DNA from: Owenia fusiformis
Lineage: Eukaryota > Annelida > Polychaeta > Sabellida > Oweniidae
Direction: 5' to 3'
Assembly: GCA_903813345.2 (NCBI GenBank)
Contig: CAIIXF020000007.1
Location: forward strand, 3,975,730-4,039,729
Length of the DNA stretch: 64,000 bases
Shown: positions 2,642 through 57,855 of the stretch, in pieces
Position numbering within the stretch: the stretch's first letter is position 1
Layout of the letters: each line of letters starts with the position of its first letter
Position numbers and translations under genes: made by a program
Notes under the pieces: model-generated
The model's input: only the letters and a program-made list of their open reading frames with translations
Database searches by the model: none
Told to the model about the DNA's origin: nothing

Positions 2642-4081
2642 TTAGCTGTGCCTCTGGTGTCTGATTGAAAGTTTTGTTGTATGATTGGCGTAATGTGGCC
2701 ATTCAAATTTCATTACTTTCTCATCATGAGCATATTGGTCTATACATTTCCTGTATGTCTGAATAAAGGACCAAAGTAGTCCACTTTCTGGCACACTCTC
2801 AGGGAATCCTTCATCCAGCAGGTGGCACCACCAGTCAGTGTCTTTTGTATATTTGACATGCTGTAAGAACCAGATAAATGCAGGGATGATATTAGACTTT
2901 TTAATTGGATGATATATCTCCCTACCTGGATAATCTACATCATATACAACATCATTCTGTAATGTTATATCGAATGTATCAGGTTCACACCCTGATTGAT
3001 TGTCCTTCCGTCCACACATATCCCTGACAACAGCCTCAAAACATTCACCCACGTTGTTACTCTTACATCTCACTTGATGTTTTAATACCAGAGTCTTCAG
3101 CGTGAAGGAAGATGTTTTCCCCCCAACAGTACAAAGTATATGGCTGATGAATTTCATGCATATAAACACTTGTTTATGCCATCTGGTTAAGACATGTTTG
3201 TTATCATTTGGTGGGTCTACAATGGATTCCATCCAGTGACAATCTTCAACAAAACATTTACATAATTTCAAATAGAATTTTTTCTCTACTTCCCCACCTA
3301 AAGGAACCATTACAGTTCTAGGTGAGCGACCAAATCTCTCTATGCAGAAACAGAGGTCAATATCAGTTGTTGTAAGGGGTGTTCCCAAGCGTAGCCATAT
3401 ACTTGGCCCATGGCAGTATTCATTCATACTACACACACCAACCGGATATGTGTCCTTAGGGCCATATTGTAAGTCAGCATATCCTTTAAATTTAGATCCA
3501 AGCCTAGATTCCAGTGAGTGTTTGATTGCGTGTTGTATTTTCTTAACAAGTTTACAAGATAATATATGTCTACCTTTGGTATATTTCTTCACCATATCAT
3601 CAGCAAATCCTTGTTTTAGGGAAGCAAGTCTGACTGTTACTACACCATAGCCTATATCTCCACCCCCATACCTAAAACAATCTTCTCCAAGATTCTCAAC
3701 CTGGACATTTTCATCATCTGATAGAGCTAAGGGGATCAAGAAATCACACTCATCTACAGATACAACTTTGGTTTTCTCATAGTGACTCCCTCGCCCAACA
3801 AGTTCTTTAGATTTGAATGCAGGTTCTTTTGCTCCTACATCAGCACAGAGATCCTGTACAAACCTCTCTACATAATCAGTGTGTTCTTCCAACTGTTCCT
3901 GTGTGTATTTCCCAGAACTATGGACTTCAGTCTTAACAGAAATAAATTCAACAAACTCTTCGAGGTTATCACCAATCCTGCTATAAGTAAATGTTGAACC
4001 TAGATATGCTGGAAATAGTCCTAATATCATTTCCTTTAAGCCATATAGATATTCCGATTTTCTGAATATAATGTTACCCAT
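2642..4081 (-). CDS. cGAS-like receptor (Mab-21 domain nucleotidyltransferase), single exon
   Basis: Intact 479-residue frame with a good Kozak context (caacATGG). The fold signature of cGAS/Mab-21 proteins is visible in order: GRGS motif at residues 96-99 followed by HYEKTK; metal-binding pair E111-x-D113 (VDECDFLIPL); the GPSIWLRL strand at 225-232; and a third acid in TDIDLCFCIE, where D242 lines up with the third catalytic Asp of cGAS. A helical Mab-21 C-terminal half follows (WHKQVFICMKF near 301-311). Length matches animal cGLRs (about 350-520 residues). Family knowledge: cGLRs sense nucleic acid or other ligands and make cyclic dinucleotides that activate STING. Because all three acidic positions are kept, enzymatic activity is plausible, unlike many non-catalytic Mab-21 paralogues; this and the ligand are inferences. 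No transmembrane segment or signal peptide is evident. WDR75 starts 7.8 kb away on the other strand. A foldback element begins 69 bp upstream of the start codon. Confidence 0.88.
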   Translation of the reverse strand: MGNIIFRKSEYLYGLKEMILGLFPAYLGSTFTYSRIGDNLEEFVEFISVKTEVHSSGKYTQEQLEEHTDYVERFVQDLCADVGAKEPAFKSKELVGRGSHYEKTKVVSVDECDFLIPLALSDDENVQVENLGEDCFRYGGGDIGYGVVTVRLASLKQGFADDMVKKYTKGRHILSCKLVKKIQHAIKHSLESRLGSKFKGYADLQYGPKDTYPVGVCSMNEYCHGPSIWLRLGTPLTTTDIDLCFCIERFGRSPRTVMVPLGGEVEKKFYLKLCKCFVEDCHWMESIVDPPNDNKHVLTRWHKQVFICMKFISHILCTVGGKTSSFTLKTLVLKHQVRCKSNNVGECFEAVVRDMCGRKDNQSGCEPDTFDITLQNDVVYDVDYPGREIYHPIKKSNIIPAFIWFLQHVKYTKDTDWWCHLLDEGFPESVPESGLLWSFIQTYRKCIDQYAHDEKVMKFEWPHYANHTTKLSIRHQRHS

Positions 4082-4150
4082 GTTGATGTATTATTTATAT
4101 ATTTTCCAGAGTTGTACCTTTCTTAATAAGTCTTTATAAAGTTCCTTTAA

Positions 4151-4564
4151 GGTCAGGGTGCATGATGGGAAATTTTCTGCATTCCTCAATTGAGTCACAT
4201 GTTATTTTTCAAACAAGAATCACTCCTTCCCTTCATTGTCTATATCTTCCAGTTTTGCACAAAGAGTGCACTTATGTTCCTAGAAAAGACTTGTGAGAAG
4301 AATGTTTCGATAAAGTGTATAAAAAACAAGAAAATTCAGTGAAAAAAATCAGAAAATTTTCAGAATTTTTTTTCACTGAATTTTCTCATTTTTTATACAT
4401 TTTACAAAACAAACCTTCTCACAAGGCTTTTCTAGGCACAGAAGTGCATTCTTTGTGCAAACTTGGAAGATGCAGACAATGTGGGGAAGGAGTTATTCAT
4501 GTTTGAAAAATAACATGTGACTCAATTGAGGAATGCAGAAAATTTCCCAACATGCACCCTGTCC
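4151..4564. mobile_element. foldback MITE flanked by TTAA, just upstream of the cGLR gene
   Basis: The two halves are near-perfect inverted repeats around a palindromic centre (about 4310-4395). The left end GGTCAGGGTGCATGATGGG mirrors the right end, whose reverse complement is GGACAGGGTGCATGTTGGG. TTAA flanks both sides (4147-4150 and 4565-4568), as in piggyBac-type target duplications. The ends begin GG rather than the usual CC, so the superfamily is uncertain. No coding capacity. Confidence 0.7.
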
Positions 4565-4849
4565 TTAATGATCACAAGAACTTCCCAAAATATTCTCTTC
4601 AGTCTAACAGGCAATTGATTCAACAGACTTATTCACCAGTCACCTTATAATAAATATAAATGTTGAGTCAACACACAATACCTACTTAACATGGTCCTGT
4701 TATGTTTAGCTATATAAATCAATTGATTTTTACACAGCTATTGTAGCTTATAGCATTTGAAGTTCTTTGGAAAATGTATAAAGCAAGTAGTTTTAGGGGA
4801 ATCCCCTTTTAAAAACTACTGCGAATTTCCATTTGATTCATTCAATTAT

Positions 4850-11987: not shown

Positions 11988-14900
11988 GTGAGTATATTAT
12001 TTTTTCTCTGGAAGATATCTTTGTTGCTCGACCAATTATAAGTGATTGTATTATTTGTAGAATTTCTAGATTATTTTTCCAACTTCTCTCGGAATGTACT
12101 AAAAACCCTTCGACCTACGACCCTTCGACCCTACGACTTACTGGGTGTCAAGAATTTTTGGAATATATTTTATTGAAAAACCCTTCGACCTCTGATTTCC
12201 CAGTCCAGTTTACTAAATGATTACGTATAGTTCCAACTTCGAGCTCCCTGTGCACGCAAATACGCATTTTACCTGGTAATTGTCACAGGGGCTTGTCTGG
12301 AGGGTTGGGCAAGCCCTCCGATGAGTCTACTGCTTATTAATAGTAAAAAGGGTGGTCGGTTTTGATGCTACAGTTGGGGACATAAATAAATGACAGGTGG
12401 ATTTGCTGAAGTGAGGATTTCCCATGTTAAAAATAAGAGAATTTACAAGAGGCCATAAATCAGTGGATGAGATTATACAAAATGTAAAATATACAAATTT
12501 TAAGGGATATGTATCTAGACAATATTGGAAATTATGGGCTTTCAGACCACCATAATTAGGAAATGGTGATCGAAAATCGACCTGTCATTTATTTTTGTCC
12601 CCAACTGTACCTGAAATTTGTAGAAAATGATTGTTTATAAGTTGTTAGATATATCAAGTAAAAATATATGGAATCCTTTCAATAATCGACATGCTGATTC
12701 AAACAACACTACAGAGTAAACTTACCTAAAATGGTAGCAATCCATCCACTAGTTGCTGAGATGTGTGAAGAACATGTAAGGAAATGATTAAATTTAATTG
12801 AAAATGCAAAACACGACAATTTTCACCCTCAAATTGTTAGCTCCAGAGTCGATTTCTTCCCAAAGACATGTCCACTGTTAAAAAATGGTAGTCCCTAGAG
12901 CTCTTTGTTTCCTTAGGTTCATTCCCGTATATTATTTTAAACGAAGGACAGCCTATAACGACTGCTATACGCAAAATAGATGCATGAAGTTATGTTTCGA
13001 AACTGAAAATGTGTTCCATGCGCAGTTGCGTTCAATCCAGCAATTTGATTAGTTCATATTATATGAACGCATGCGCAATGACCACATATTTTTCTAGATA
13101 GATGTCACTTGCGTTCATTATTTCACACCAGTCCCTTCCCATGATGCGCCTAATATTGCGGGAATATTTTCCTTTAGTGATAAAACAAATAACTCTCATC
13201 TTCGAAATATGTTTTCCGTTCCTTGGCAATAATCTTTCATTTGGTACTGGCCGAAAAGTAATTCGAATCGTTCTGAATCGTGGGAATGAAGTACTTTCTT
13301 TTTTGCGCATGCGCATAGAACACGGGATATTCGGCCATTTTTCAACTTTCAGTTTCGAAACATAATTTCATGCATCTATTTTGCGTATAGCAGTCGTTAT
13401 AGGCTGTCCTTCGTTTAAAATAATATACGGGAATGAACCTAAGGAAACAAAGAACTCTAGGAACTACCATTTTTTAACAGTGGACGTGTCTTTGGGAAGA
13501 AATCGACTCTGGAGCTAACAATTTGAGGGCGAAAATTGTCGTGTTTTGCATTTTCAATTAAATTTAATCACTTCCTTACATGTTCTTCACACATCTCAGC
13601 AACTAGTGGATGGATTGCTACCACGTTAGGTAAGTTTACTCTGTAGTGTTGTTTGAATCAGCATGTCGATTATTGAAAGGATTCCATATATTTTTACTTG
13701 ATATATCTAACAACTTATAAACAATCATTTTCTACAAATTTCAGGTAGCATCAAAACCGACCACCCTTTTTACTATTAATAAGCAGTAGACTCATCGGAG
13801 GGCTTGCCCGACGCCTCGAGACAAGCCCCTGTGGTAATTGTCAAGCAAAAATGTTTCAGTAGAAAAATTTCTAAAAAAGATCGTCTACACAGCAAAAATA
13901 CGAACGCTGAAAAAAAACGTACGCATTTCGTTCGGACTTTTCACGCGAATTACGTATAATTGCGTTCGAAATTTTTCGTCCCTAACCCCCTAGTATGTTG
14001 ATACTCATTAGCATGGCACATTGGCCAGGTGGCCATTTTGAAAAGTGGCCTCTACAGTATTTTAAAGTCTTATTTTACTTTTTTACTAAAACTTGAAAAG
14101 TAGTTGAACGATTTTGAGATCAAAAGTTCGTTGGGATTTGCTCCACCTCGCGTTGCTGTTATCTAGTTCTGAAATGTTTCATATCTATGTCTAATAAATA
14201 TAGTTGTATAGATGTGTTTGTAATAACCTTTATGCCCTTAAAATGTATATATTCAGGGGGGGGGGGCATTCGTGGGTTCAAGTCGACCACTCCATTGGCC
14301 AAATATTCTCTCAAAATCAGTACAATTTTTCACGATTCTGAGCATTTTCAAGATTTCTGGGCCACTTGAAAATTGTCAAATGTTCACCCCTTGATCCTTT
14401 TGAAAAACTTAAATTGGCAAAAGCTGGTTATACGAACCTGATATGACCTAGCTTGCAAGCTTTTTCTTGAGTTTGTGTTTATTTTCCTTGTACCCTTGCA
14501 TGCTTTGGATTTTGTAGGATGCAAAACAAAAAATCTACTTATTTAGTTGGCAATAATTCTTAACTATACAAATCCAAATTGAATCAAAGTTGATAAAATC
14601 AAAAGACGGTTCTCTTTAAACTATATAAAAAATTTGACCTCCTGAAAATATGCACGATGCGCCACTGTTACAATGTGATGGGAAAAGCACAAGATGATTT
14701 TTACTGAGGAGGTAAGAAACGTTCACATTCGAATGTGCTTGAATACATTAAACCTGCACATCGCTCCAAAACGAAATATGTTGACATATATTGTTTTTAC
14801 ATTTTCAAGCTCTAATATAAAGTTTATGTAAATAAAAAAAAAAATATCTGCGTAATGTCAAAGAACAATCATTTAGTTAAAAAAAATAAAAAGGCGATTG

Positions 14901-17900
14901 CGGGATTTTAACCCGGGCCTCCCGCGTGCTAAGCGAGCATTCTACCTCTAGACCACCGTGATTCAATGAATGGTGGAAGTAATTAAACGCTACTTATTTT
15001 GGATGCTATGATTCGGAAGTGACGTCACATTCTTCATTTAGAAACCTTTCCAAAATCATATCGCCGGCTCCGATCGAAGTCCAGCTTTTAATATCTTTAG
15101 ACTCTCTTGGGACAGATTCTTAAGTTCTATACACAAAGTAATATTTCCAGCAACTTCATATGGACTGAGAAATATCTAGAAGGTCGAAGGGTATATAAGG
15201 GTAATATATTTCAAAAATTCTTGACACGCTGTAAGTCGTAGGTCGCAGGGTCGAATGGTTTTTAGTACATTCCACTTCTCTCACAGTCAACAGTTCAACT
15301 TTTCCCTTGAAATCATAGGGCAGGGGTAATTCAACACGACCTAGTATAGGTCTTATTTCTTATCTGACATATCTTGTTGCCCAAACAAGATAACTTCTGT
15401 GTATATGGTGCCAAGTATGCAGAAAATAAATCTGCTTCATTTCGTCAGTAGAACGGCAAAAATAAGAAATTGGGAGACCATTGTGCAATAATATATGGAA
15501 AAGTATATTCATAATGTACATGAATGACATTTGTATATTTCAGATTTTTTAGTTTTTTGTGCAATAAGCCTGTGCCGTCTTGTAATTTGAAGAATTTCAG
15601 CCATCTTATTGAAAATAACATGGCAGAGAAACATCCAAATATAAGAGGCCACACACTTTATAAGCCAAACTAGAAGCAATCCAAGATATACAAATGTCAT
15701 TCATGTACATTATGAATATACTTTTCCATATATTATTGCACAATGGTCTCCCAATTTCTTATTTTTGCCGTTCTACTGACGAAATGAACCAGTGAAATGG
15801 ACTTGAATATCGAAATGGCAAACCGTGTCAGTAAATAAATCATTAGGCGTAATGATAACGATTTGACTATCGGAGTTCTAATACTGTCATTAGGGGTGGG
15901 GATCACCCACATGCTATCTATTGCAAGACTTATGCCTGGCACAACCGTCACCATGTTATTCAGTGTTTTTAAGTTTTGCAAGGATTCTGCCATAAGGTGC
16001 TATGGAAGTTAACAGGAAATGACAAAACAAAAAATGTCAAAACCATGCTGGATTTTGAAAATGTTTTGAGTTCATGTTTGGACCTCCAGTCAGTTAACTA
16101 GAGTCCATTTCACTGTCTTATTACGTCAGTAGAACCCCAAAAATAAGAAATCGGGAGTCCATTGTGCAATAATATATGGAAAAGTATATTCATATTGTAC
16201 ATGAATGACATTTGTATAGATTATTTCAGATTTTTTAGTTTTTTGTGTAATAAGCCTGTGCCCTCTTGTAATTTGAAGAATTTCAGCCATGTTAATTTTA
16301 TTGAAAATAACATGGCAGAGACGCATATAAGAGGCCACACACTTTATAAGCCAAACTAGAAGCAATCCAAGATATACAAATGTCATTCATGTACAATAGG
16401 AATATATGTTTCCATATATTATTGCATAATGATATTTCGATTTCTTATTTTTTAGGTTTTACTGACGCAATTAAACAGTGAAATGGAATTTATTTCCACA
16501 TATCATTTACATGACCGGGAATTACTCGAGTCTCTAGCCAATACTTGGCTAGAGGGGATTTCATCTGGAATACTGTGAACTCCATTTGAAAAAAGCTGGC
16601 CGCTGTGTCATAAATTTATTGAATATTTAAATAATCGCCAGATAAATAAATCATTAATCAAAACGGACCCCGCTTGGCTCCTTGATGAGATATGACATGA
16701 TTTCATCTAAAAGTAAAACAAAATTGCTCCAAGAAAAATGGCGATGTTCGAAAACTGGACGAAATGTCGTTAAAGTCTGACATTAGTAACTGGCTGTAAA
16801 TTCTAAGTTAGCGATCCAGAAGATGTGAACTAATACACTGATCACTTTATGTGTGTTTCGGAATTTTTGGTAAGGTAATAAGACCATAACTCGCAATTCA
16901 AATTGTGATGTGGAAAAATGGCGGACATATGTTAGGCGTAATGATAATGATTTCACTATCAGAGTTCTAATACTGTCATTAGGGGTGGGGATCATCCACA
17001 TGCTATCTATTGCAAGACTTATTATATTCTATTCAAATTCTATCACTGTTAAATTGTATATCTGCTTCCAGTGTTCGCGTTGACGCCGTTTTTTGCCATT
17101 TTTACGGAAATTTCAGAAGGTTGGACGTAAAAATCAAAATCAACTTACGTTCCTAGGACGCTAAAATTATAAACTGCTTCAAGATAACTTTTACTGCAGC
17201 ACAGTAGCGGTGAGACATGATTTTCATCAAGATTTTCAAACTCACTACCTTGATATGCGAGCAATGATCCAGGCATAGGCCAAGGGAAAAGTAATAGTAA
17301 GCTGTATATAGAAGAGACAGGTCCACAAGTAAGATTGAAAATTTTTCAAATTTTTTTAGTCTTGGCACTGGTTCTCCTTACCATGGTATCAAATTGTATT
17401 CCCAAATCTCTCCAAAATCTTCTTCAAAGTGTTTTTCAAACTTATATCATTGTTTTTTTCAAATCTTTATCTAAAAACTGCATATAATACTGCATATAAA
17501 ACAACAACTATGGATGCAATTGCCTGGCAAGCTGAAACTGATTGTCACTGGTGGAGGTCAGGGAGGTCAGCAGTGACCAATCAGATCACTTGTTTACTAA
17601 TGAACTTGCCAGGCAATTGCAGGTTTCAGAAATTCTCTCTTTTAGACAGCATTATTCACTCTACATCATCTGACTGAGTTTCAATCTTAGGTAAGAGCTA
17701 CAAACTATCAATTTTCTATCAACTGCCCATTGCTTTTTGAAAATAATACACTAAATATTGTTGAAATCTCCATCTTAACAAGTGGTCTAAGTCAGAGTTG
17801 TTCACCTGTCTCTTCTATATACTGCTTACTATTACTTTACCCTTGGCCTATGGATCCAGGTATATTTATATCGACAAATCTGATTGGCTATCATGACTAC

Positions 17901-23900: not shown

Positions 23901-26900
23901 TTAAACTTGCCACATATTAGTTGTCGAACACGATGTAATTGCGCTAATTCGACTGAAAAATCAGATTTGTTAAAATGTTTTTTCAAATGGACCCACTTCT
24001 CAAAGCATTCAAGACTTCCGTGAGATGATAGTATGTGGCTTGGAAAAGTCAATAATCTGAGCAGTTCCTCACATTGGCATGGTTCGTTCGGTGAACAATT
24101 TGCAAAATTTGAATACAATAATCAATACAATAATTTGATGGAAATATTATGATTTACCCCAGAAAATCAAGTACCATTTTGAAGCCAAGCAGCATTGCAA
24201 CGTAGTGGTGCAAGAATTTCTTAGATTAAGGTAAGGAGCTCTGAGAAAAAGCAAAAACAACAGATCCGTAGTTCATCAGAAGCTCAACTAAACCATTTTT
24301 TCTATGCTTGGTCATGCGTCTCTGGGGCAATAACAAATCTCAGATATATAAATAAAGCCCCAGAGATGCATTAATGTACCTAATAAATTGGTAGCACTAA
24401 AAAGACTTTGTTTTTGTAGTCCTTTGTATTTAGGTCCAAAACAGTATAATTTGCAGACAAGTTGAGCCTTTCGGTTAGACAGGAACTCAATCCATGCAGT
24501 GAAACATCTGAGGTTAGGGATAAGCTATTGATATTTGGGAGAAGTATTATTTCTGTGTTCGTATACTTTTCAGGTATCTGTTCTGCTGCTGTGGTCATGT
24601 GATCAACGTGTACAGTACACTAAGTGGGGAATGTGTGCGACAGTTACGAGGTCATACTGGTGTTGTCACCTCTGTTGTTGTCAACCCTCATAATAAGTTA
24701 CAGGTAAGCCGCTTTCATTTAAAAACTCATATACCTCAATCACATATATATTTATACATCATAGAGGTAGGAAGCTAATACTGTTTTTTTACTTACTTTT
24801 GCTGTTTATTTACATAAAAAATGAAATGACTTCAAATTGTTTTGAATTTTGATAGTTGAATGAACTTTTCGATGATTAAGAGATCACAGACATTGTTAGA
24901 AGCATTTCTGCTAAATTACATAGTTTCATGGAGCATAAACACACCTATAACTACGGGTTATCCTTTTAAAGAAATATGTTAATGAAGAGTTGGAAGCTAT
25001 TTAGGAAGAGACAAGTGGATCTAAAGATTTTATGCACATCCTATGCACCAAGGGAATTGTCTAGGAATAGTATTTTGTGTATTTGGTAGAGTTCCACCAA
25101 GATAGAATTTAGATAAATAGACACAAACTAATATTTTTAGTCAATTCAAAACAATCATAATTTATTTGAACTCTCATTTTATCTTGTACATTTCAAATTG
25201 GACTTCAGTGAATGTCTCATCACAGTCATAATCATTGAATTGGAGTTCACATTTTTATGGAAGATATTTTTCCAAGACATTGCCGTTTGATTTGACGAAA
25301 AATGCTTTTGGGCAGGACCCGCTCATAAATATAGTGGGACGATGATAATAGCAGCATGGAGCTGCCGTCCCATGGTATACCCAATTATGGGACATCCCAG
25401 ACACCTTCAATCTCCATAGCTTTCCCCGTATGTTGACTGGTTTTGGCTTTATGAAGAACCATCCTCCAGTTGTAGTTGTACCATCCCAATTATTCACAAA
25501 AAGATATTTTGCCGAACCTCCGAGTTGAGGGCAGTTGTTCACTTGCACTGCTTTCGATAAAGTTGTGGAGCGATATGGCGTTGAAGTAGTTGATGATGGT
25601 CGTGAGCAAATCCAATTTGTGGAAGACAAACGCTCGCAGACATAATTATCAACAGTTGTCACAAAGAGACCTCCTCCACTAACTCTTACACTATGTGCAG
25701 TTTTACCTGAATATATAAAGTACAAAATTAATATCAATAATACTGTTCCACAGCTGGATGACTCTAACTGCAGTTAGCTTCATTCAAGATGGTTGCCAAA
25801 TTTCTTTTGATTTCGATAAACTGCTGATTTCAGCTAAACTAAGTTGAATCTAGATTCCAAATATTTCGCTTTGCAAACTAATAACACTATGATAACAATC
25901 TCAGATAAATCCTCTAACAACCGCAATATGGGAGAATTTTAAAGAAAACGGCTTCAAAATTCCAAAATTCACATCACTTTGCCAAAGTGACCTTAATGTT
26001 TTTACCTTGCTCTAATGGCCGTAGTTTAATGACCTTGATGTTATGACCTTGGTGAAATAAACTTGTTAAAGTGACCATGCTATGGAGCCTGAACGATAGT
26101 AAAATTCCACTGTTGACACTTTGCCTATGAAAATTTGTGTTGTTATCAAATAACTGTACCAAACCAGAAAGTAAAAAGCATTGAATGTTCAAATATCATC
26201 AGGTGACTTTGGTACACTGCAATAAACTTAAAACCTTCCCTTTTTGTCATTATATTGCATCCACATAATCTAAATGTTAATGCGATGCAACCATATAAAT
26301 ATAAAAATAAAGATCTAAAGATATAATTAGAAGTTTTCAGTTTGAAAATTCATTTTTGACCTTGTCTTGTTTCCATATTTTATAAACTTCCAGTTTAGTT
26401 CTCAAAAATGATCAATTTCACATTCAAATGTGGCAAAATGGTGATTGAATTGTGTGAATTCATGTTTTACAATATACTCAACAGCAACAGAATGATGTAT
26501 ATCCATATTATCCATACAATATTTGCCAAAATTCCCCTAAAAATTGTCACCGACAACAACTTTTTGAATCTACTGTTGATAATTACCTTTAACTCATGTC
26601 ATATATGACTAATCTGTTTTTCGTTCAGGCCTTGTGCTATAATGACTTCGAGGTAATGACCTTGTTGGAGTAGCCTTGCTATAATAATTTTGCCGTTGTG
26701 ATCTTGGTACAATATCATTGCTATAATAACTTTGGATGACTTACCTGAGGGCTTCCCTACTAGATACCAGCTGGGTGTTCCTGGGTTAGCTGCGGTGATG
26801 TATCGGGAGTATACATAACCATTTCCTGCAACCAGGTATACTTGAATCTCCGTACATCCTGAGTCAGTACATGTATCAATAGCAGAGGGCCCAATCTATA

Positions 26901-29900
26901 AGTAACATGTCAATGATGTCATGATGGTCATTGTTTTGAAGGCCAAAGGATGGAGTCAGGGAGGAATATTTAAAAAGTATAAAACTAGCATATACATGTA
27001 TATCTTTTTTAAATATTATACAGAAATACAATAAAGTCACGATAAAGAAATAAAGTAGAATGAGCTTGACCAGAGCGAAGTTAAGAATTAGGTTGGGTCT
27101 AACTATAGAACAGTAATGCCTGAGTCACGTTTGCTCTGATTTTCAATCCGGCACCTGACTGATTGAGTATTTTGTTCAAAACTGAATGCAGTTACTTACA
27201 GAAGTGCCTGGGGGTGATCCATGATACCTCCACTGCCAGGAATTACTAGAATATGACCACCAGCGCTCATACAACTTAAAGTTAGTACCAACAACAAAAA
27301 CCCGACCTCCATGTATATTTTTACATGCACACATAGGCCGCAATGTTACAGCGTTTGGAGAGCCAGGTGCTTTTCCATGTATCGACCATTGCCAACCACT
27401 GCTCCAATATCTCTCAAACAAACGGCCATAGTTAGAAACTATGAAAAGTTTTCCATCATACATAACACATGGCTCAGATGCAAGATGCTCACCTGCTTGT
27501 AAGCCCCAGGGTTCCCAATGGTTGGCCCAAATCCATCCGCTCGAGTAGTATCGCTCCTGTAGATATTTATTTCCAACACCAAACAGTTTTGTTGACCAGC
27601 CTGACTTCATAGGAGCAAGTCCGGTAAATACTGGAGGTGTCCCATGGTTAGCTGTAACCCAACTCTCCCCATTGACATATGGTATTATCAGTGTAATACA
27701 CACTACTGGGCTCAAACACCACGACATGTTTGCTTCGTTTTGTGTTTGAACTGGTTAGTGAAGTTGTATTTGCTAAAGGAACTTTCTCATTAAGTGTCAT
27801 ATATCATACAGTACATCACTAGACAATATGAATAGCTAACTGTCAATAGTCAATATATGTATCGTTTGTTTTCTTTCATGCTCATTATTTTTAAGTGTGT
27901 TATTATTAGGAGGCCCCTTTATCATTTCAAACTAATTATTTTGTAAATCCAAGTCCAAAGTTTTCTGCAGGATTTTTTCTTTAATGGGTTCAAAATTCTC
28001 ATTTTCGCAATTCAGACCAAAATAGGTCAAAATATGCTAATTTTCCTGTTTTTCTCATTTTCAAGTAGGTGCATATAGATTTTCAGGTGAGTGCAAGCCT
28101 ATTTTAAAAATCTGAGGTGGGTTCTGCGCCTTGTTGCTTTAATGTTGGGGAGATCACTGAGTATATATATATACAAACTTTGTGATACAACATGCCAATG
28201 TGTTCTTTTGCTTTCAGCTCTACAGCAGCTCATTGGATTCTACTGTCATAGAATGGGACTACACAGATGGTGTAATTTTAAAGGTATTTATGAGAATGGA
28301 TTATGTGCAGAATCTCATTGAAGTGTTACTCCTGGTGTTATCCTTTTGGGAAATCTTACAAAACTCACAGGATGAGGTTTTGGGTTATCAAGGGTTTGAA
28401 ATGGCCTTAATTTGATAAATAGACTGAGCCACGTACAAGTTTGTAGGGATAGTGAGAAGCTGCCATCTGTTTGTTTGTCTGTCAATTAATTCTTGTGTCC
28501 AGGTGGTACCAATGGACAGATTTGGTTCAAATTGAAAAGGCTTATGCTTTATGGGTATTGCCTCTGGTTGAGAGAAATTTTCAATATTGTCCCTCAATTC
28601 ACATCCTCTGAACAAAGGCCTCCAGAACTTGTACCTCCTTCTTCCAAGAAGAAGGAAGGAACTTAGTGGATGATGTCTGGAGCCCTGTGTTTGGAGGATG
28701 CTCATTTCAAAATTCATTTTTCATAAAAATATTATCAAATACCTGTTTACAGATTTGGTTCAAATTTTATATACTGATGCTTAGGGACAAATGAGCTTTA
28801 CTAAAGAAGAAATATTCAAGATGTCTGCTCAGTTTAAAATGGCCACAATTTTTTACAAAAATTGTAATCTTTGATAACTCAAACACCATTTGACAGATTT
28901 GGTTCAAATTTTATATGCTAATGCCTAGGGACAAAGAGCTGTGCTCAAGATGAAATGTTCAAGATGGCCGCTGGATTTTGAAATGGCTGCCTTATTTCAT
29001 TAAAATATATTCTTATTGACTTCCATACCAATTGTCAGATTTGGTTCAGATTTTTTTGCTGATGCCTTGTTGACATTGGAATCTGGTGAAGAAATGCTGA
29101 ATTCAAAATGGTCATTTCTCAGGAAAATTATGATTTTTCTCATAACACAAAAACAGTAAGTTACCATATTTGGTTCAAATTTTGATAATTTCTAATATCA
29201 TAAGACCTTTGCTTGAGAAAGAATTTAGATATGGTGACATTTTACTTAATAAAATATGCTTCCTTCAATGGGATTGGCTACTTTCCAGAGTTGCTGTTTT
29301 CTATGGAATACTAAACTTTCCATTGCTCACACCCAGTCACCTGAAGAAATGAACGGAGGGGGGCAAATCTGGAAGAGTTATTTTTTCAAGAGAAACTTTA
29401 CAATTGAATTGCTAAATGATAGTAAACGAATAGGTACAGTACACGGGGAAATGTGTCTTCTACTATTTTTTTTGAACTGATGGAATTGTAAGGTACAAGA
29501 TCTATTAAAAAAGGCGCAGTGTCACCAACATGGAAATGTCAATGTTTTTGCTATAAATCAAGCAACAATGGTCTGCCCGACCTGTAATAAATAAATATAA
29601 GTAGTCTTTTCATGACAAAATTACTGTCATTGGTGATTTTTTGAAATAAGTTTTCAAGTGTTAGATAAAGCATAATTGAAACTGAACAAAGGGGGATGGG
29701 AGTGAATGGAGGGGGGAGTAATATGTCTTTGAGGTGGAAGAAATTTCTGCGAATTTGTGTATTTGAAAAATGAATTCAGTTACTCAGTAACAACTTTATG
29801 TTACAACTCTGGAAAGCGAAAAATAGGGATTTTCGATTATTTTTTCTATAATGTATTGTAACGTGTTTTACAAAACCAACAATGAAAATAGTTTTGTGAT

Positions 29901-35900: not shown

Positions 35901-38900
35901 TCCGTCTGTATATATGCCCAGTCACACGCCTGAGGAACTTTTTCTTTTTTTTTTTTTTTTTTTTTTATTCTGTATAAAAAGTTGTACAAATACAATATTG
36001 TAGAAAAAAAACATACAGTAGTTGCATATGCTATAATATCGTATTTATATATAATATTAGCCTTATTTGGCATAGTAGTTTTGATAAAAAGAGTAAGGGA
36101 AGGGGGGGGGCAGGGGAAAAGGCAAGAGGGGGACTTTTTATGATTTTCTGCTCGATGGTTTGAGCTTGGTGAGGGGGTTTTTATGTTCCCAGTGTGTATT
36201 TTACTATGTTATGAAATGTTTGAGTTTCAACCATTGCTGTTCCATAAGTTCAGGTTTTTTTCTTCTTTGGCTGATGCTTTCTTCTATTTTTTTCTCTGTT
36301 TTTAGGAAGTTTTGCCAGCCTATCATATTAGGTCTCCTTATTTTCCTTTTACATGTGTTTAGGAATATCTTTTGTTTCAGGAATAGATGTTCGTTTTCTG
36401 TTTTTCCATCTCCGAAAAGGAATTTTTCAATCGTGGGTACATCTTCGTCAAGTTGGTTGAAAGATGTTATTAGGAAGTCTTGTACGGCCTCACAATGGTA
36501 TATTCCATGTTCTAAAGTATCTATGTCACTACGGCATAGACTGCATATATCAGTGTTATAGCCGTCTATGTTCATTTGTTTTAGTTGTTTGTTATAGTAT
36601 AGTATCCGGAAGAATATTTTTATTTGGAAATATTTCTCTTTTGTCCTGAGAATATTTTTTCTATTTTTGTGGATTTTGGCCCACATCAATGGATTTTGTA
36701 GTTGCAGTTTGTTTTGCCACTTATCTTCCATCTTCTTTGGCAGTTTCACAGCATTGTTCTTTTTTAGTAAAATCTTGTAAACTTCTTTATTGTTTGTCTT
36801 TTTTAACCATTCTGTGTTAATTGTGACATTCGGATTCTCGGTTTCTTCTTCATTTTCTCTTGGGTGTCTTAATTTTCTTTTCCAATTTTGGGGGATGGCT
36901 GTAATTATACTGTTATATTTCAAAGTATTCCTTTGGTTCATAACAATATCATATTTATGGCCTAATTCTGCTGCTGTGAGGAATCGATTTTCGTCCTGGA
37001 TGTCTTTTATAAATTCAATACCTTTTTGTATCCATACTTCGTTTTTCATGATTTCTCCATTGATTTTTATCTGTTCATTGTGCCATAATGATTGTTGCTC
37101 TGGGTTTCTCGTATCCGGAATTGTTTGATATTTTAGACTGCACCAATTTTTGTAGACTGTCTTCAGGTACCTTAAGTCTAAAACATTTATTTTGTCACTA
37201 TTTTTTGAAAGGTTCAAAGCCCATACTTCTCCCTGCGTCAGGTTCTTCAGGTAGTAGTTCCATATCTTCTTCCATTTGCCACTATATGTAGGGTCTATAT
37301 ATTTCTTTATCCATTTGATGCTTAGGTTTTTTACGTATGATTGTAAGTGGAGCATGTTTAGGCCACCTCTCTCTTGTTCGTTCATCATTATCTTTCTTCC
37401 AATTTTGTCTGGCTTCTCATCCCATATAAAGTTGAAAAACATGTTTTCTATTTCTTTGGTAAAATCATCTGTTGGTGTGAGCACTGTACATAGATATGTC
37501 AGCTGAGATACGAGGAGTGATTTTATCATTATTATTTTTCCTAGAGGTGTGATGTTTCTACTTTTCCATGCTCTAATAAGTCCTTGAATTTTGTTTCTTT
37601 TCTCTGGGAAATTTAAACTGTTTATGTCTCTTCCATCTAAAGGAATGGTTATACCAAGGACTTTTATATCTTTATCTTGGTATTTTAGCCCTGATGCCAT
37701 GCTTTCATCTCTTACTTGTTGCTGTAATAGTGCATTTTCTCTGCCTATCACGGCTTCTTCTGTTTTGTGGAGATTGATGTTCAGTCCTGAGATTTCTCCA
37801 AAATTTCTGAACTTTTTAATTACTTTTTTCGCGGATGCAATATTTCTTACAAAGACTGATGTATCATCGGCGTATTGTGAGATCTTTACTTCTCCATCTG
37901 GTATTTGTATGCCTTCAATTTCTTCATCTCTTCTGATTGATTCACTCAATATTTCGGCACATAGAATAAATAAATACGGACTTAGGGGGCATCCCTGTCG
38001 TACTCCTCTGTTCAGGTTAAAGTAGCGTGATGTATACCCGTTATTTATTACTGAGCTTTTTGCATCGTTGTATATGGTTTTGATCCATTTTCTAAAGTCT
38101 GGTCCAAAATTGAAGTAATCTAGCGTCCGATCAATAAATTTCCATTCCACTGTGTCAAAAGCTTTTTCAAAGTCGATGAAAAGCATTATGCCAGATTCAT
38201 TGTTTGATTTAAGGTGTTCCATACAGTCTATTATGAGTCTAATATTTTCTGATATATTTCTCCCTTTAATAAAACCTGTTTGGTCTTCGTTAATTATTTT
38301 TGTTAAATGGGCTTTCATTCTTTCTGCTAGTCATCCTGTATCTATTTTGTAGTCTGTGTTTAGCAGTGATATTGGTCGCCAATTTAATAGGCGTAGAATG
38401 TCACGGTCTTTTTTAGGTAGTTGGGTTATAATGCTTCTTTTTTGTTCGGTTGACAATTCTTCTTTATCTAATGCTTCCTTGTAGCTTTTTACCAGTATTG
38501 GCACAACTGGTTCTTGGAAACATCTATAAAATTCGCTTGTTAAGCCGTCGCTACCTGGTGACTTCCCGGTCTTCAGGGACTTGATCTGTGTTGTTATTTC
38601 TTCTAAGGTAATATAGCCCTCGCAGCTCTGTTTTTCCTCTTCTGTGAGACTGGTGATTGATTTTATAGCAGGGAAGAATGTTTCTGAGTGCTGCCTAATG
38701 TTTGGGAGCCTGCTTCTGTACAGTTCTTCATAGAACCTTGCACTTTCTTTCCTTATTTGTTCAGGATCATTAAGTTCCCTGCCATCGTCTGTATTCAGTT
38801 GTGTGATGTTCTTTTTTGCAAAATTTCTTTTTTCTAACTTCAGGAAGTAACTAGATTGTTTTTCACCTTCTTCCGCCCATCTTATTTTTGCTCGAAGTAT

Positions 38901-41900
38901 TGCGCCCTTTGCTTTTTCATCATTCATCTCTTCTATCTCTCTTTGGAGTTGTTGTTCTTCTTCTCGTAGCTGTGTTTCATGGATGTAGTTATCTCTTAGG
39001 TTTGCCTCTATTTCTTGTAGCCGTCTTATTTTGTTGGTGATATCTAGGTGTTTTCCAGCGTTTTTTTTGCTTAGAGTACCTAATGGACTCTGTTTTGATT
39101 TTGAATTTTATGAGTTCCCATAAATTTTGAGCAGTCATGTCCTTGTGCTCTTCAACCAAACCTCTGAATAGGTTTTTTATCAAAGCTACATATTCTCTAT
39201 CTTCTGTTAACCTTGCATTGAATTTCCACAAACCGGGGCCACGCTCTTGAGTGCCCATCCTTAGTTGCAATTGAACAAATTGGTGGTCAGCTATTTTGTA
39301 GGATTTTGGAGTGTGAATGTCTACGTCACTGGTATTGTTGATTAGTGGAGAGGCTATAAGGAAATAATCTAGTCTGGATTTTGTAGTGGTAGCGGCATTT
39401 GACCAGGTGAAATTTCTTTTGGTAGGGTTATTTACTCTCCATATGTCCACAAGATCATGTTCCTCCATTAGCTGCTTTATCTGCTGTCTTGTGTTTCTAT
39501 GTGCATCCTGGTTGGTATTGCCTGTTTGGCTTTCTTTATCTTTGTTTGGCTCTAGGGGCACGTTGAAATCTCCTCCTATTATAATAGAATAATGATTACG
39601 CCCTTCTCTCAGTTTTTTTGCGATATTGTTGAAAAGAGTATTGTTGTCATTGTTATGTCCATATATGTTCACTAAGGTTATTTCCTTTCCTTCTATTTTA
39701 GTATTTATTATTATGTATCTTCCATCTTCTCCGATGTCGCTGTCTTCAATTTGGATGTCTGCCTTATGAGAGAATAGTATACCAACTCCGGCTGAATTTG
39801 TGGCCCTTTCTGTAAAATATGATGTCATGCCCCATTCATTTTCCCATTGTTTTGCTTGTTTCATGCCGCAGTGGGTCTCTTGTATGAGTAGAACGTCATA
39901 ATTTTCGTTCCGAGCGTGTAAGAAGAGTTTTCTTCTTTTAACCTGGTCTTGCAAGCCCCTCACATTAATGGTAACGCCTGAGGAACTTGCTTTTATATCT
40001 AATGTGGATTTTTATCTTACCAATCATGACTTAAATATTAATATGGGTATTTCCTATAATTAATATATACTGGATTTTAACTTACCAAATATGACTTCAA
40101 TATTAATATGGGTTTAAACCTATAATAAATTAAATACTGGATATGACAAATAAATAAAATCAATTATAATCTACCTATATGATGTAGATATCCAAATGTT
40201 GGTCTGAATTTATCTTTGTGGAAAGATTGTATGCTTCAGTTGCTCTTTAACAAAACATGTGGGACAGTGTATCTATATACAGTAAAACCTGTCTAATCCG
40301 AACACCCATGGGACCAGCCAAAAGCGTTCAAATTGGCAGGTGTTCAAATTTCGAGGATTTTGTTGGTCGGGGGGGGGGATTTTCATTGTTCAGTGCACTA
40401 TATTGAACACTTAATACTAAGTCAGAAAACAATACATGTTGTTGATGAGTTAATTCTACAATAGGCCTATAGCCTATATGCTATGTTTTATTTATATTTT
40501 GAACAATTTCATCATTTTAGTAAAAAAGGATAACTCTTATATTTTGGCAAAAACTTTGTAATACACTGTAAAAGTATATGATAGTCTCGTACGAAATGGC
40601 TTATCCCATATTATGGTATTACCGGTATATAGCACTGCTTTACTTTTGCTTGAAAAAGTCCTTCATTGTTGTTTGTTTCTTGGCACTTTTAGCATTACCA
40701 ATATTTGAGTAGATATCTTATTCAAGTAAAAATAATTTTTCATGAGTGTTCATTCGAGATGATGTATAATCCTTCAAAATATCAAGGGCATTCAGGATGT
40801 CAGATGTATGCAAATATTACGAAGTTGGATTTTTTCTCCTTCTCATGATATAATCGTGTCTGCAAATGGCGTCTGTGTTGTTTTTGTGATTATAAAACAT
40901 TTACTGATTGAATCTTAGCTATCATAACAGACCCATGGGATATATAACAGTTAAGACTTGTTCATAATCCAAATCAAAAACATCCAGTTAATTTAAAATA
41001 AGGATAAACCAATTATCTACCAGACTCTCACCTTTCTCTTAATCCAAATCAAAAACATCCAGGTAATTTCCAATAATGATAAATCAATTATCTTCTTGAT
41101 TCACACCTTTCTCTTAATCCCAAAATAAAACATTCAGTTCTTTTCTAATAGGATAAACCAATTAACTCCTGTATTCACACCTTTCCAAAACATCCTGTTG
41201 TTTTCCACAAATTAGGGATGTCACTGAGACTAAATAAGTTGATTAGGACAATTGGTTCTTTGATTGCATTTGTATATATGTAAAGATAAATAACAACTAT
41301 AACATTGACTCAATATGTGGCTTTAATTAAAATGTCCAGACATTTGATTTCTGATAAAAATGTCCAGATTAGACAGGTCACTTTTTCAAATCTGGTTGTT
41401 CACTGTTCAAATTAGGAGGTGTTCAGATTTCAAGGTTTTTTTAACATGGGAGTCAATGGAAGAAAAAAATGGGACCGAAAAAAAGTGTTCAAATTGGAAG
41501 GTGTTCGGATTAGCCAGGTGTTCAGATATACAGGTTTTACTGTATTACAAGATGTCCGTCCGTCCGGGCAATAACTAAAATACCGTTGGCCCAATTTTAT
41601 TCATATTTTTTAAAAATGGCGACCATTTTAGGGCAATATGTTTTAAATGTAAAAAGATTATATAGGACATTAATAAAGCTAGAAATGTAGGTATTAAAGA
41701 AGCACATGGCAGCCATCTTGAAAAATGGCAGCCTTAACTCGCTATTTTACGATTTCTGCTGTAACTCAAAAAGTAGTGGAGCGATTTTGTTCATATTTGG
41801 TAAGTGAATACTATAAGCATGCCAAACTGTCTAATGACACGTTTGGTAGAAGGCAGCCATTTTGAAAAATGGCCGCCATTTTAATGTGTTTTACTATAAC

Positions 41901-50900: not shown

Positions 50901-53900
50901 TTTGGTTCAAATGTATATGTTGATGCCTAGTGACAAAGGGGCTTTACTGAAGAAGTGATTTTCAAGATGGCCACTGAGTTTCAAAATGGCAGCCATTTTC
51001 CGTGGAAATATGTAATTTCTAACAACTCAAATACAGGGTGGTCAAAAAAAATGGCAACCCTAATTTTTCCTCATATCTTTGTCATTTTTAGAAATTTTGC
51101 CCTGATATTTGGCACACATGTACATCATTCAATGTCATACTAGACTGCGTTATTTCATGAACATTGGACTGATAGTCGCAATGTTACAGCACTTTAAACA
51201 AGGCGCCCCAGTTTTCCAATATCGTGCTGTAGGCAAACCTGCACACATTTTCCAAACCTGTTAATGACCTAACTGCATTCCTCAGCAAGTATGGCCTGAA
51301 CGACACATGTGATCTTTATTTTGAGGTCAAATGTCTTTCTGGTGTTATTACCCTACACTCTATCTTTTGGGTATCCCCACTGGTAAAGATTAAATGGGGC
51401 CATATCTGGGCTATGGGGTGGCCATTCATTGTCTGTTGTACTGCTGATAATGTGGTCATTGAAGTGGTCCCAAAGCCATTATTGTGCATCATTGGGTGTA
51501 TGGGGTATGGTTCTGTCTTGTTGGAACCACTGTTGCTGCCTATCAACCCCCCTGGGTTCAACTAAAGTCCCCAAGAACTCCATGGGAATCACAAAATAGA
51601 GTTTGATGTTGACAGTTATTGCATATCCGTTGGTATCATCAAAGGTAAAGAGCCCTGTCTTCTTAGAACACACTAAACTGTGCATCTGTCTGTGTGAAGG
51701 TGCCTCTCCACTACTTCATCAAGTGCTTGGCTCCCCAAGAATACATAATTGTTAGAGTTTACCAGTGCATCAAGTTGGAAATGGAGTTCATTTGAATACG
51801 AGACCAGCTCAGACAGCCCAAAAGTGGCCATATGGGGCATGTTGCTTAAAATGCAGTAATATTGTGACTATCAGTCTCATGGTCATGAAACATGGTAGGT
51901 TGGTAGGAAATTGAATGATGTACAAATGTGTAAAATATCAGTTATTTCTTAGAATGACAAAAATATTAGGAAAAACTAGGGTTGCCGGTTTTTTTGACCA
52001 CCCTGTACCAGTGGACGTATTTGGTCCAAATTTTATATGCTAATGCCAATGGGACAAGGGAGGTTTGATTAAGAATTTTTAAGATTCCTGCTATTTATCA
52101 AAATGGCAACCATTTGTTGTTAAAAATGTAGTCTTTGATAATCCAAATACCAGATCATGGATTTAGTTCAAGTTTCATATGCTCAAGAAGAAATTTTCAA
52201 GATGGATTTCAAGATTTTCAAGATTTAAGCCTCCAAGGTTTAAACTAAGAGAAAGACAAAGAGTTATCCGCAAGAGTTCAAGTCATGTTTGTATTTTAGA
52301 CACCATTTGAATGAGGCCAAGAAGACTGGAGTTCAGATGACTTGTGTTGCAGTTCACCCGACAGAACGCTGCATTGCAACTGGATGTAGTGATGGAAGAA
52401 TCTACCTGTGGTTCTCTGTGTGTAACTCACAGACAGTTACACAAACTAAATACCATTGGCATTCTCTTGCCTGTAAAACCATTGCTTTCACTAATGAAGG
52501 TAAAGTAACCACTATTGCGTGGATTGCTTTATACCTGTGATATAGCATTTTATTCTACCAATAAGAACTGGTAATATCATTAAGGGACACCATTTTTCGA
52601 GACTGATGATTGGTGTCTCACAATCATTGGACTTTCCCAGTTTGCTTGGATTGCTTTATACCTGTTATAGCATTTTAAACTACAAGTAAGAACTGGTTAC
52701 ATCATTAAGGACACCATTTTTTGGACTGATAATTGGGGTCTCACAATTATAACACTTTCCAAGTTTGTGACATGAATGCCTTGTTCAAAATACATATTGT
52801 AATTTTGTATTCTTCAGGTTCATACATGCTGAGTGGTGGGCATGAGTGCGTACTGGTTAAATGGCAGTCTAACTCTAATATGAGGGACTACATGCCACGA
52901 TTAGGAGCTCCAATCAACTACATCTCTTGCTCACCAGATAACAATCTTTATGCTGTATGCATGAAAGATAATGGTATGTAGCCATTCTCTAATACTCAAT
53001 CTAAAGAAAGATTTATTACCATATTTCTCATTTAAGCACCTATGTTTTTGCTATTTATGAGCATGCCAAATGCAATACTTTTGTGCTTTACTAACGAGTG
53101 TATAATGTCACATCAATAGATTATCATATTAACATAGTTAATATTCTTGTCAGTAGGATTCCTTTACATGTTTGTTCTGAATTCAATTTTTATTTTGATC
53201 CAGTGCTCCAAATGACCTTTCACCTTGATCTGACCCTTTGACCTTTATGTGACATCATTATTAATTTTACTTGATCACTGGCAACATTGCAGTCTCATGA
53301 TGTTATTAAAAAACATTGATTACTTGTAGTATAGGTTCTGAAATACTATCTGATGTCATAGGATAAGTTCCAATCAAACAATATGGCTTGTATTTTTTCT
53401 AGTCCTTTTTACTATACTATACATGACATTTTCCATTTATTTTAGTTGTTCAACTGATCTCCAACAACTTCAAGGTGCGCCAAATCTACCAGGGCCTAAC
53501 TGCAGCCCATATGGATAGTTATACCAGGAATATATGTCCCGCTGGACTCATTGTTGATCCCAGAACCAAAAGTCTGGTCCTCAATGGAAAACCTGGACAC
53601 TTGCAGTTTTATTCTTTACAAAGAAACAAGCATTTGTATAATGTAAGCAACTTAAGGCACTTTAATGCTGCAAATTTATTGATGCTATTGAATGACATCA
53701 TTGTTCAGTTGTTAATGCATTGAATAATCTATCTATCTATATATTAAGAAAGTAATTCCAAAATTAAAGGGATGCATTTTTGTGAAACCCTGTATAACTC
53801 CTCAGTAGGAGCTATAAGGTGTTATAACTTGACTAGTACTTGAAATTAAACTTTCAGCTGTCAGCTACTGGGTAACCTACTATTTATGATCAGCTCATTT

Positions 53901-55272: not shown

Positions 55273-55669
55273 GTTAGTTTTGTTTTTTTGGAATTTTTTG
55301 ATGGAAATAAATCTTTGAGACAAGCTCGTTAGAGACCAGTGCAGCCAGGCTAGGGCCTTTCATGCTTGAAATGCAGTTCTCAAAGATCTTTCCACCCTGG
55401 AGTTTAGTAGTCTTGCTTTTGAAGGGTGGTCAATTTATTTTGATAAAAAAATCATATTGAATGAATGTTAATATAGGATTTTATTAGTACTGATGCCCAT
55501 TTAGGGCCAAAGGTACATTCTATATACAATTTTCAATAACAATGTTAATGAAACCATGGTATTGACATATTATTTTGCATAAACTGACTTATGTGCAAAC
55601 ATGTCCTACTTTGCTCCAATGATAAAATCATATATTGCGTATACGCATGTTTATCCTATGCCAAGTAGA

Positions 55670-55990: not shown

Positions 55991-57855
55991 TTGGGTTCAT
56001 CCCTCCCTACATCCGCCTCCGACCCCGGTCAAAATGTGACCTGAGATGAATTTTAATATAATTTCCAAATTTGTAGCTTATATTTGTTATAAATTTATAA
56101 CATGTTATAATTATCAATAAGGGTTCTATTCAATACAGAGTTCATTAATTTAGTAGCTAATTAAAAAAAATTGAGGTCACATTAACTTTGGCAGTGGGGT
56201 AGGTGCGACTTGACACAAAACGACTTTCTAGCAGTCAGTTTTCAATGTAATCTATACCTCAAAACATGATTTTTTGGGTTATTTTAAAATAGCAATGAAG
56301 TTCTCAAAATTTGCCATGAAGATTTTAGGGTAAAACAGATTTTTCAAAAATATTAGTCAATAGTACATAGAATACTACAGTATAATTTTGAACAAGTGAC
56401 AAAAAAAGAAAACATTTTTTAAGTCAATGTTCTCTTGATCAAATCTCTCAAAAGTTGGTGAAAAGCTTTATTTTGGGTTATTAAATATACACTGTGAAAC
56501 ATGTTGAAATCTTTTTACTCAGATATGAATAAATTGATATTTTGTCCTTTTTCTCAAGGTCACATCTACCCCATGCGTCCACCATCATAAAAAATATTTG
56601 TTCATCAATAATATTTTCTTGTAATAGGTAGATGTGATAAATTCCTACATAAGAAAAGGATAAACACATTTATGTCAAGTATCTAGAGTACTTAATTTCA
56701 ATATTTATTTTCAATACTTGTTTAAATATTATGTTTTGCCCCAAGTCGCACATACCCCACCTCGTGTAAAATTATGAAAATTTTCAATAAATCCTCTTCC
56801 CTTCAAAAGTTGATGGTAATTTTAATACTTATTTCATTGTTACCTTCTCTGAAATGTTAACAAATAAAAATAGCCCATTTAGATCACCCATGGTATCATT
56901 TTAAATCATATTTTCATACATTAAGATACTAGATAAGATGCATTTAAACATTGATTACCAACATATCATATGAGTATAGTTTCCTTCAAGGCAGAATCTG
57001 ATCTAAAGCATTGACAAAATTGCAAGCAACATGTACAAATAACATATTAATGTGGTACTGGTGATCTCAAATACAAAATCCCATAAGATCTATGATATCA
57101 AATCAATTGGTAAAGACTAAAGATATGAGCCCAAAATGTAATAAGATTGAAATAATTGTTTCTTGTGCTTGTCTTTGTCTGTTCATTATCTGTTTTCACA
57201 CCATCGGTAGTATATGGTCGTCGTGATGACTATGTTTTCATTACGGTGATTGTCCCACTTTTTTGTCATCCCAATTTCGGGATTCAGCTGATTATCTTTT
57301 AGGTGGCTGAATTGTTTTCTGGCGGCCAATTTGAAGGTTTTTTGTTAAATCTTGTCATTGTCATTACAGGAAAACCCCTTGTTCAGTTTTCTCCAAATCC
57401 ATACACCTGTTTGTAACAGAACTGCAAAAGATCTCTACAATTATCTCCACTCTGTTATATTGCCTTAGATTTTAGTTCAATATGTGAGCTATTGATTAAT
57501 ATGACCACAGTCAACATTTTTTCTTCAAAGTTTTTAAAAATAATAGGAGAAAAGTTTTCCTGGTTCATACATTGTCTGGCTATTTGGTGGTGTGATCTCG
57601 TTCACGTAATGTATCTTGTTAAATATAGCTACTGTGCCTAAAAATTGATACCACAGCATTGAATTAATGGGAGTTGACTTTTAATTAAACAGACTGTTAT
57701 TTTATATCTAGATATTGTTTGATATAAATTCATTCCAAAAGTAACATAGATGGTACCAACTTGAAGCTAGGAATTTGTAGTATGTAGAAATAGGATATAT
57801 ATGTGGTGGATCTGGTGTGTGTGACATAAGGATATTAATTATGCATTTTATTATA
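55991..57855. other. downstream WDR75 intron, nothing recognised
   Basis: AT-rich. Words like 'aggtcacatctaccccatgcg', 'gtcgcacataccccacc' and 'ggtaggtgcgactt' recur loosely between 56020 and 56770, hinting at an old repeat. No exon with WDR75 homology. Confidence 0.35.

Follow-up and report, generated by a model that had tools for sequence, protein, structure and literature searches.

An uninterrupted 479-codon frame of Owenia fusiformis that most likely encodes a divergent cGAS-like protein of the Mab-21 superfamily

Positions 2642 to 4081 of a 64,000-nt stretch of Owenia fusiformis DNA (the window) had been read, in an original prediction made from the letters alone, as an intronless gene for a cGAS-like receptor (cGLR) with all three catalytic acids in place. 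The question raised by this locus is whether its product is a nucleotidyltransferase able to make a cyclic dinucleotide, or a Mab-21 relative that makes none. The parts of the gene, with one neighbouring element, are as follows.

2642 to 4081, minus strand: one uninterrupted open reading frame, 479 aa long, for a candidate nucleotidyltransferase of cGAS-like type (Mab-21 superfamily) by frame and profile match
3725 to 3901, minus strand: residues 61-119, predicted leading helix, activation loop and strand with E111 and D113; sole significant profile match
3785 to 3796, minus strand: G96 R97 G98 S99, predicted activation-loop motif; S99 in register in 32 of 32 non-independent alignment settings
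3743 to 3751, minus strand: E111-C112-D113, predicted first two catalytic acids; same 32 of 32 settings
3356 to 3358, minus strand: D242, probable third catalytic acid; 21 of the 32 settings, block score 19.5
3080 to 3115, minus strand: residues 323-334, TSSFTLKTLVLK, best SYHxKT candidate of the C-terminal lobe; block score 18.0, weak
4147 to 4568, no strand assigned: palindromic element, a neighbour outside the coding gene, with 202-nt arms and TTAA ends

The locus is a real coding frame. It runs on the minus strand, which the original prediction had not named, from an ATG to a stop through 479 codons with no internal stop. When the whole window was shuffled 100 times by a first-order Markov model, no ATG frame exceeded 175 aa; the uninterrupted 479-residue frame that had been claimed was borne out, at a length far above chance. 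The use of bases by codon position was strongly uneven (chi2 41.7), a value reached by none of 3000 random 1440-nt stretches with starts in the 5-34 kb part of the window (maximum 22.2). Because an in-frame TAA lies four codons 5' of the ATG, coding must start at this ATG, barring a splice from further 5'; the 5' untranslated part of the gene may contain an intron. The ATG is found in the context ATACATCAACATGG. Two splice-like donor patterns and no acceptor pattern occur within the frame, and the nearest AATAAA on the 3' side is 790 nt past the stop. The encoded protein is not basic overall (K+R 60 against D+E 64, pI 6.6), which speaks against a cGAS-like enzyme.

The original prediction had also stressed the intronless state. 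Since MAB21L1 and MAB21L2 have one exon each (excerpts of PMC9681113 and PMC4342166), a single-exon gene is not unusual here. Among the papers listed in literature searches, judged by titles and abstract openings, none dealt with intronless cGLRs. The uninterrupted frame, the LINE frames elsewhere in the window and the palindromic element alongside would also suit a recently inactivated or unexpressed copy of a multi-exon cGLR, that is, a retrocopy or nascent pseudogene in a repeat-rich region. The 479 codons without a stop and the strong codon periodicity make such an origin very improbable. Moreover, no A-run of at least 7 was found in the 2000 nt downstream of the frame, and no exact words of 10 to 20 are common to 1801-2641 and 4082-4700, so that a recent retrocopy is not indicated.

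Several other elements were observed in the window. The arms of the palindromic element are 88% complementary, 65 nt separate it from the ATG on the upstream side, and TTAA is found at both of its ends (4147-4150 and 4565-4568); it resembles a miniature transposon of the kind that inserts at TTAA. Downstream of the gene, the 29 nt at 2428-2456 recur inverted at 57012-57040 with 93% identity, and the pair is probably a small dispersed repeat. LINE-type retrotransposon frames lie on the minus strand at 36207-38330 (RVT_1 match, E 6.7e-37) and at 62734-63999 (zf-RVT match, E 1.2e-5, just below its cut-off), with a third, putative one at 38992-40011. WDR75-like exons are present on the plus strand at about 52244-55315, where two frames match the models of the first and the second propeller of WDR75. 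Together with the LINE-type frames, the gene family and the gene structure, these exons point to an animal genome. W-rich repeat frames occupy about 25258-27754 on the minus strand; the best PDB-sequence match of the frame at 27179-27754 was to designed beta-propellers (Cake9, whole-sequence E 1.2e-19), with Kelch_6 matched weakly, while Pfam gave no family for the frame at 25258-25773. A long inverted repeat at about 12300-13870 was spotted by eye, as was a tRNA-like stretch at about 14880-14970 (minus strand), which ARAGORN did not call and which is perhaps a tRNA-derived repeat. A second copy of the gene was not detected by tblastn within the window; beyond the gene itself there were four matches (E 1.2 to 7.8), and the one at 14602-14649 was set aside as chance after inspection by eye.

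Kinship of the protein was assessed with a profile built from human cGAS, mouse cGAS, the cGLR1 of PDB 8gjy and MAB21L1. The 479-aa protein scored 22.1 bits, against at most 6.9 bits in 2000 shuffles, and the matched part was residues 61-119. With the profile divided, the N-terminal part alone gave 24.3 bits (at most 8.2 in shuffles, 0 of 2000 as good), and neither of the other two parts was significant: the middle part gave -1.0 bits, equalled by 278 of 2000 shuffles (reversed sequence -1.2), and the C-terminal part 1.3 bits, equalled by 146 of 2000 (reversed sequence 0.4). Of the 2000 shuffles, hmmsearch gave scores for 994 with the N-terminal part, 1309 with the middle part and 1685 with the C-terminal part; in these counts the remainder were taken as below the real score. 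The hhalign score was 41.3 (probability 61.8), and 100 shuffles gave at most 28.1, in agreement with the profile. On these comparisons, residues 61-119 are clearly related to cGAS, cGLR1 and MAB21L1.

With an E limit of 10, no Pfam family matched the whole protein. When the predicted nucleotidyltransferase lobe was searched as three overlapping pieces, these had PF03281 (Mab-21) as their sole match, at E 0.043 to 0.091 and 13.2 to 14.3 bits, below the Pfam cut-off of 24.1; no match was obtained for the C-terminal piece or for the two pieces beginning past the E-x-D strand. PADLOC models did not match the protein, and phmmer against PDB sequences returned no cGAS relative; its lone match was a phospholipase at E 0.4. 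The claimed kinship with the cGAS/Mab-21 nucleotidyltransferases is supported by the profile, by hhalign and by the PF03281 pieces. The profile search that had been proposed as a check succeeded at residues 61-119 with our own profile, and with PF03281 it stayed under the cut-off. A chance motif match in a frame that is not a nucleotidyltransferase at all would explain why no family is matched over the whole protein, and the AlphaFold models described below are unusable; we give this explanation hardly any credence in view of the 15-bit gap to the best of 2000 shuffles, none of which reached the profile score, and of a motif order and GS-to-acid spacing that match cGAS. The protein is most likely a divergent cGAS-like member of the large, already known Mab-21 superfamily.

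The residues named in the original prediction (G96 R97 G98 S99, E111, D113 and D242) are all present at those positions, and their register with the cGAS active site was examined in 32 alignment settings, which combined four sequence sets with four MAFFT modes and two matrices. Human S213, E225 and D227 were matched by S99, E111 and D113 in 32 of 32 settings, which are not mutually independent, with G98 S99 aligned on human G212 S213; the register of these three residues is secure. Eleven residues separate the GS from the first acid, followed by E-C-D-F, and the distance is also 11 in human cGAS and in 8gjy cGLR1. For the third acid the claimed register is less secure: D242 fell on human D319 in 21 of the 32 settings, Y201 in 9 and D203 in 2, and a separate alignment (A1) places D203, not D242, on D319. 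A block test, which scored the two strands around the third acid, ranked D242 first (19.5), ahead of D240 (13.0) and E191 (9.25), with D203 at 4.5; the score of D242 was equalled by 17 of 5000 shuffles. D242 is thus the best candidate and the probable third catalytic acid. By the counting rule of the published motif, the second and third acids are spaced by 126 if D242 is the third; the corresponding values are 89 for human cGAS, 102 for 8gjy and 91 for MAB21L1. The less likely D203 would give 87.

The published cGLR filter, in excerpts of PMC9980059, is h[QT]GS [X8-20] [DE]h[DE]h [X50-90] h[DE]h. The protein has the G[S/G] activation loop of that source (G98-S99) and the interval of 8 to 20 residues before [DE]h[DE]h (11 residues, then E-C-D-F), and it departs from the filter at R97, where Q or T is expected, and at the spacing of 126 with D242, where 50-90 is expected and the 87 of D203 would lie inside. 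The solved 8gjy chain departs at the same two points (K, and 102), and the filter therefore does not mark a sharp limit. The definition of the cGLR superfamily in excerpts of PMC10732462 is a PF03281 Mab-21 domain by hmmscan at E < 1e-3 together with placement inside the superfamily clade in a phylogeny; here the whole protein gave no PF03281 match and the pieces remained at E 0.043 to 0.091. Because the protein lies outside the literal motif, the spacing and the Pfam threshold, we call it cGAS-like and not a curated cGLR. Nor does it match cGAS proper in the H-C-C-C zinc ribbon expected there: H390, C396, C397 and C404 of cGAS were unmatched as a set in all three alignments of the protein.

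Homology across the C-terminal helix bundle and structural homology of AlphaFold models are further marks of a cGLR in PMC9980059. Here the profile did not recognise the C-terminal lobe (the 1.3 bits given above). The SYHxKT counterpart, SSFTLKT at residues 324-330, is weak, its block score being equalled by 136 of 5000 shuffles. AlphaFold models from the single sequence had a mean pLDDT of 31.4 for the whole protein and 34.0 for residues 58-262, and both are unusable. With an E limit of 10, Foldseek on the latter gave 73 matches; none of them reached 0.001, and the best had E 1.5. Among the best 50 of the 73 were five nucleotidyltransferases, namely TUT7 (rank 1), the CD-NTase LpCdnE and OAS1 three times, which were discounted as evidence as all had E of at least 1.5. 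The statement that all three catalytic acids are in place can be kept for E111 and D113, and as a whole it is probable only, because D242 is insecure, the spacing is off, the middle and C-terminal parts are unmatched, no Pfam family covers the whole protein and the AlphaFold models are unusable.

The uncertainty of D242 and a C-terminal lobe that the profile does not recognise also suit a Mab-21 superfamily protein that has kept the fold and some of the acids, makes no cyclic nucleotide and has a scaffold, ligand-binding or developmental role. Cases in this direction are described in excerpts of three sources: shrimp Mab21 proteins made no cGAMP upon nucleic acid and activate IKK-epsilon instead (PMC12928593), human MB21D2, whose triad is putative, yielded no product with those ligands that were tried (PMC8410604), and MAB21L1, which keeps E73 and E75 and has Q169 at the third acid, was inactive in its authors' hands (PMC4897736). 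The last case fits the original statement that acids have been lost among Mab-21 relatives. We regard this reading as possible but less likely: the protein keeps the activation loop and two acids where MAB21L1 carries D-N at the G-S position and Q at that of the third acid, and in the block test the third place was best fitted by an acid.

The reading that we prefer, at a probability of about 0.58, is a divergent cGAS-like nucleotidyltransferase of the Mab-21 superfamily that works as the known cGLRs do; the product of the gene is probably an enzyme. The fold outside residues 61-119, as well as ligand, catalysis, product and STING coupling, we infer only from cGAS and the cGLRs. In the working proposed by analogy, a ligand, probably double-stranded nucleic acid, would bind beside the leading helix, and binding would remodel the G98-S99 loop. 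Two metal ions would be held by E111, D113 and probably D242, NTPs would be joined into a cyclic dinucleotide, and this would carry the signal to STING.

Relatives of the protein were sought in viral, prokaryote and phage collections, and results from these have no bearing on lineage specificity. Scans of viral contigs, which reach close relatives only, produced no pattern match for the 479-aa protein; for the 8gjy cGLR1 stretch there were five, none of them confirmed. Prokaryote genome contigs scanned with the 479-aa protein, again for close relatives only, gave four pattern matches, none confirmed, and tblastn found no relative in phages at E up to 1.

According to excerpts of the preprint PMC9980059, about 3,020 animal cGLRs are catalogued in 583 species, and the number exceeds 200 in individual bivalve species; 140 were purified, 'many' of which produced cyclic nucleotides, 15 of the active ones were taken further, and several purified cGLRs gave products unlike any known standard. 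If the gene described here encodes a working member, it would add a further candidate to the possible sources of unknown second messengers. It would also mean that cGLRs can score below the Pfam cut-off and lie outside the published spacing window, so that such filters may undercount the family. It seems to us unlikely that the gene stands for a strongly diverged and so far undescribed subgroup of cGLRs, marked by a larger insert between its second and third acids, an altered C-terminal lobe and a different ligand or cyclic nucleotide, which the published motif and Pfam filters would miss.

Among known systems, the protein can be set beside the animal cGLRs, cGAS and the MAB21-like proteins. 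With the cGLR1 of 8gjy it shares the G-S activation loop, the 11 residues to E-x-D and a similar predicted leading helix, and, like the cGLRs described in excerpts of PMC8410604, in which the human cGAS zinc ribbon is missing from other cGLRs, it is without a zinc ribbon. It differs from cGLR1 in having R where 8gjy has K before the G-S and in the longer spacing to the probable third acid (126, against 102 there and 89 in human cGAS), and from the cGLRs in a C-terminal lobe that the profile does not recognise. With human cGAS it has G212, S213, E225, D227 and probably D319 in register, whereas the zinc-ribbon set is missing and the identity is 21% in alignment A1. An oyster cGAS homologue is described in excerpts of PMC8218723 as a Mab-21 domain with three zinc fingers that binds dsRNA and dsDNA. 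MB21D2, compared here by its description in PMC8410604 only, is a relative whose loop is Gly-Gly and whose triad is putative. MAB21L1 and MAB21L2 belong to the same superfamily and are likewise single-exon genes, but MAB21L1 has D-N in place of G-S in our alignments and, by the account in PMC4897736, E-x-E for the first two acids and Q169 as the third, where the Owenia protein has G98-S99, E111-C112-D113 and, probably, D242.
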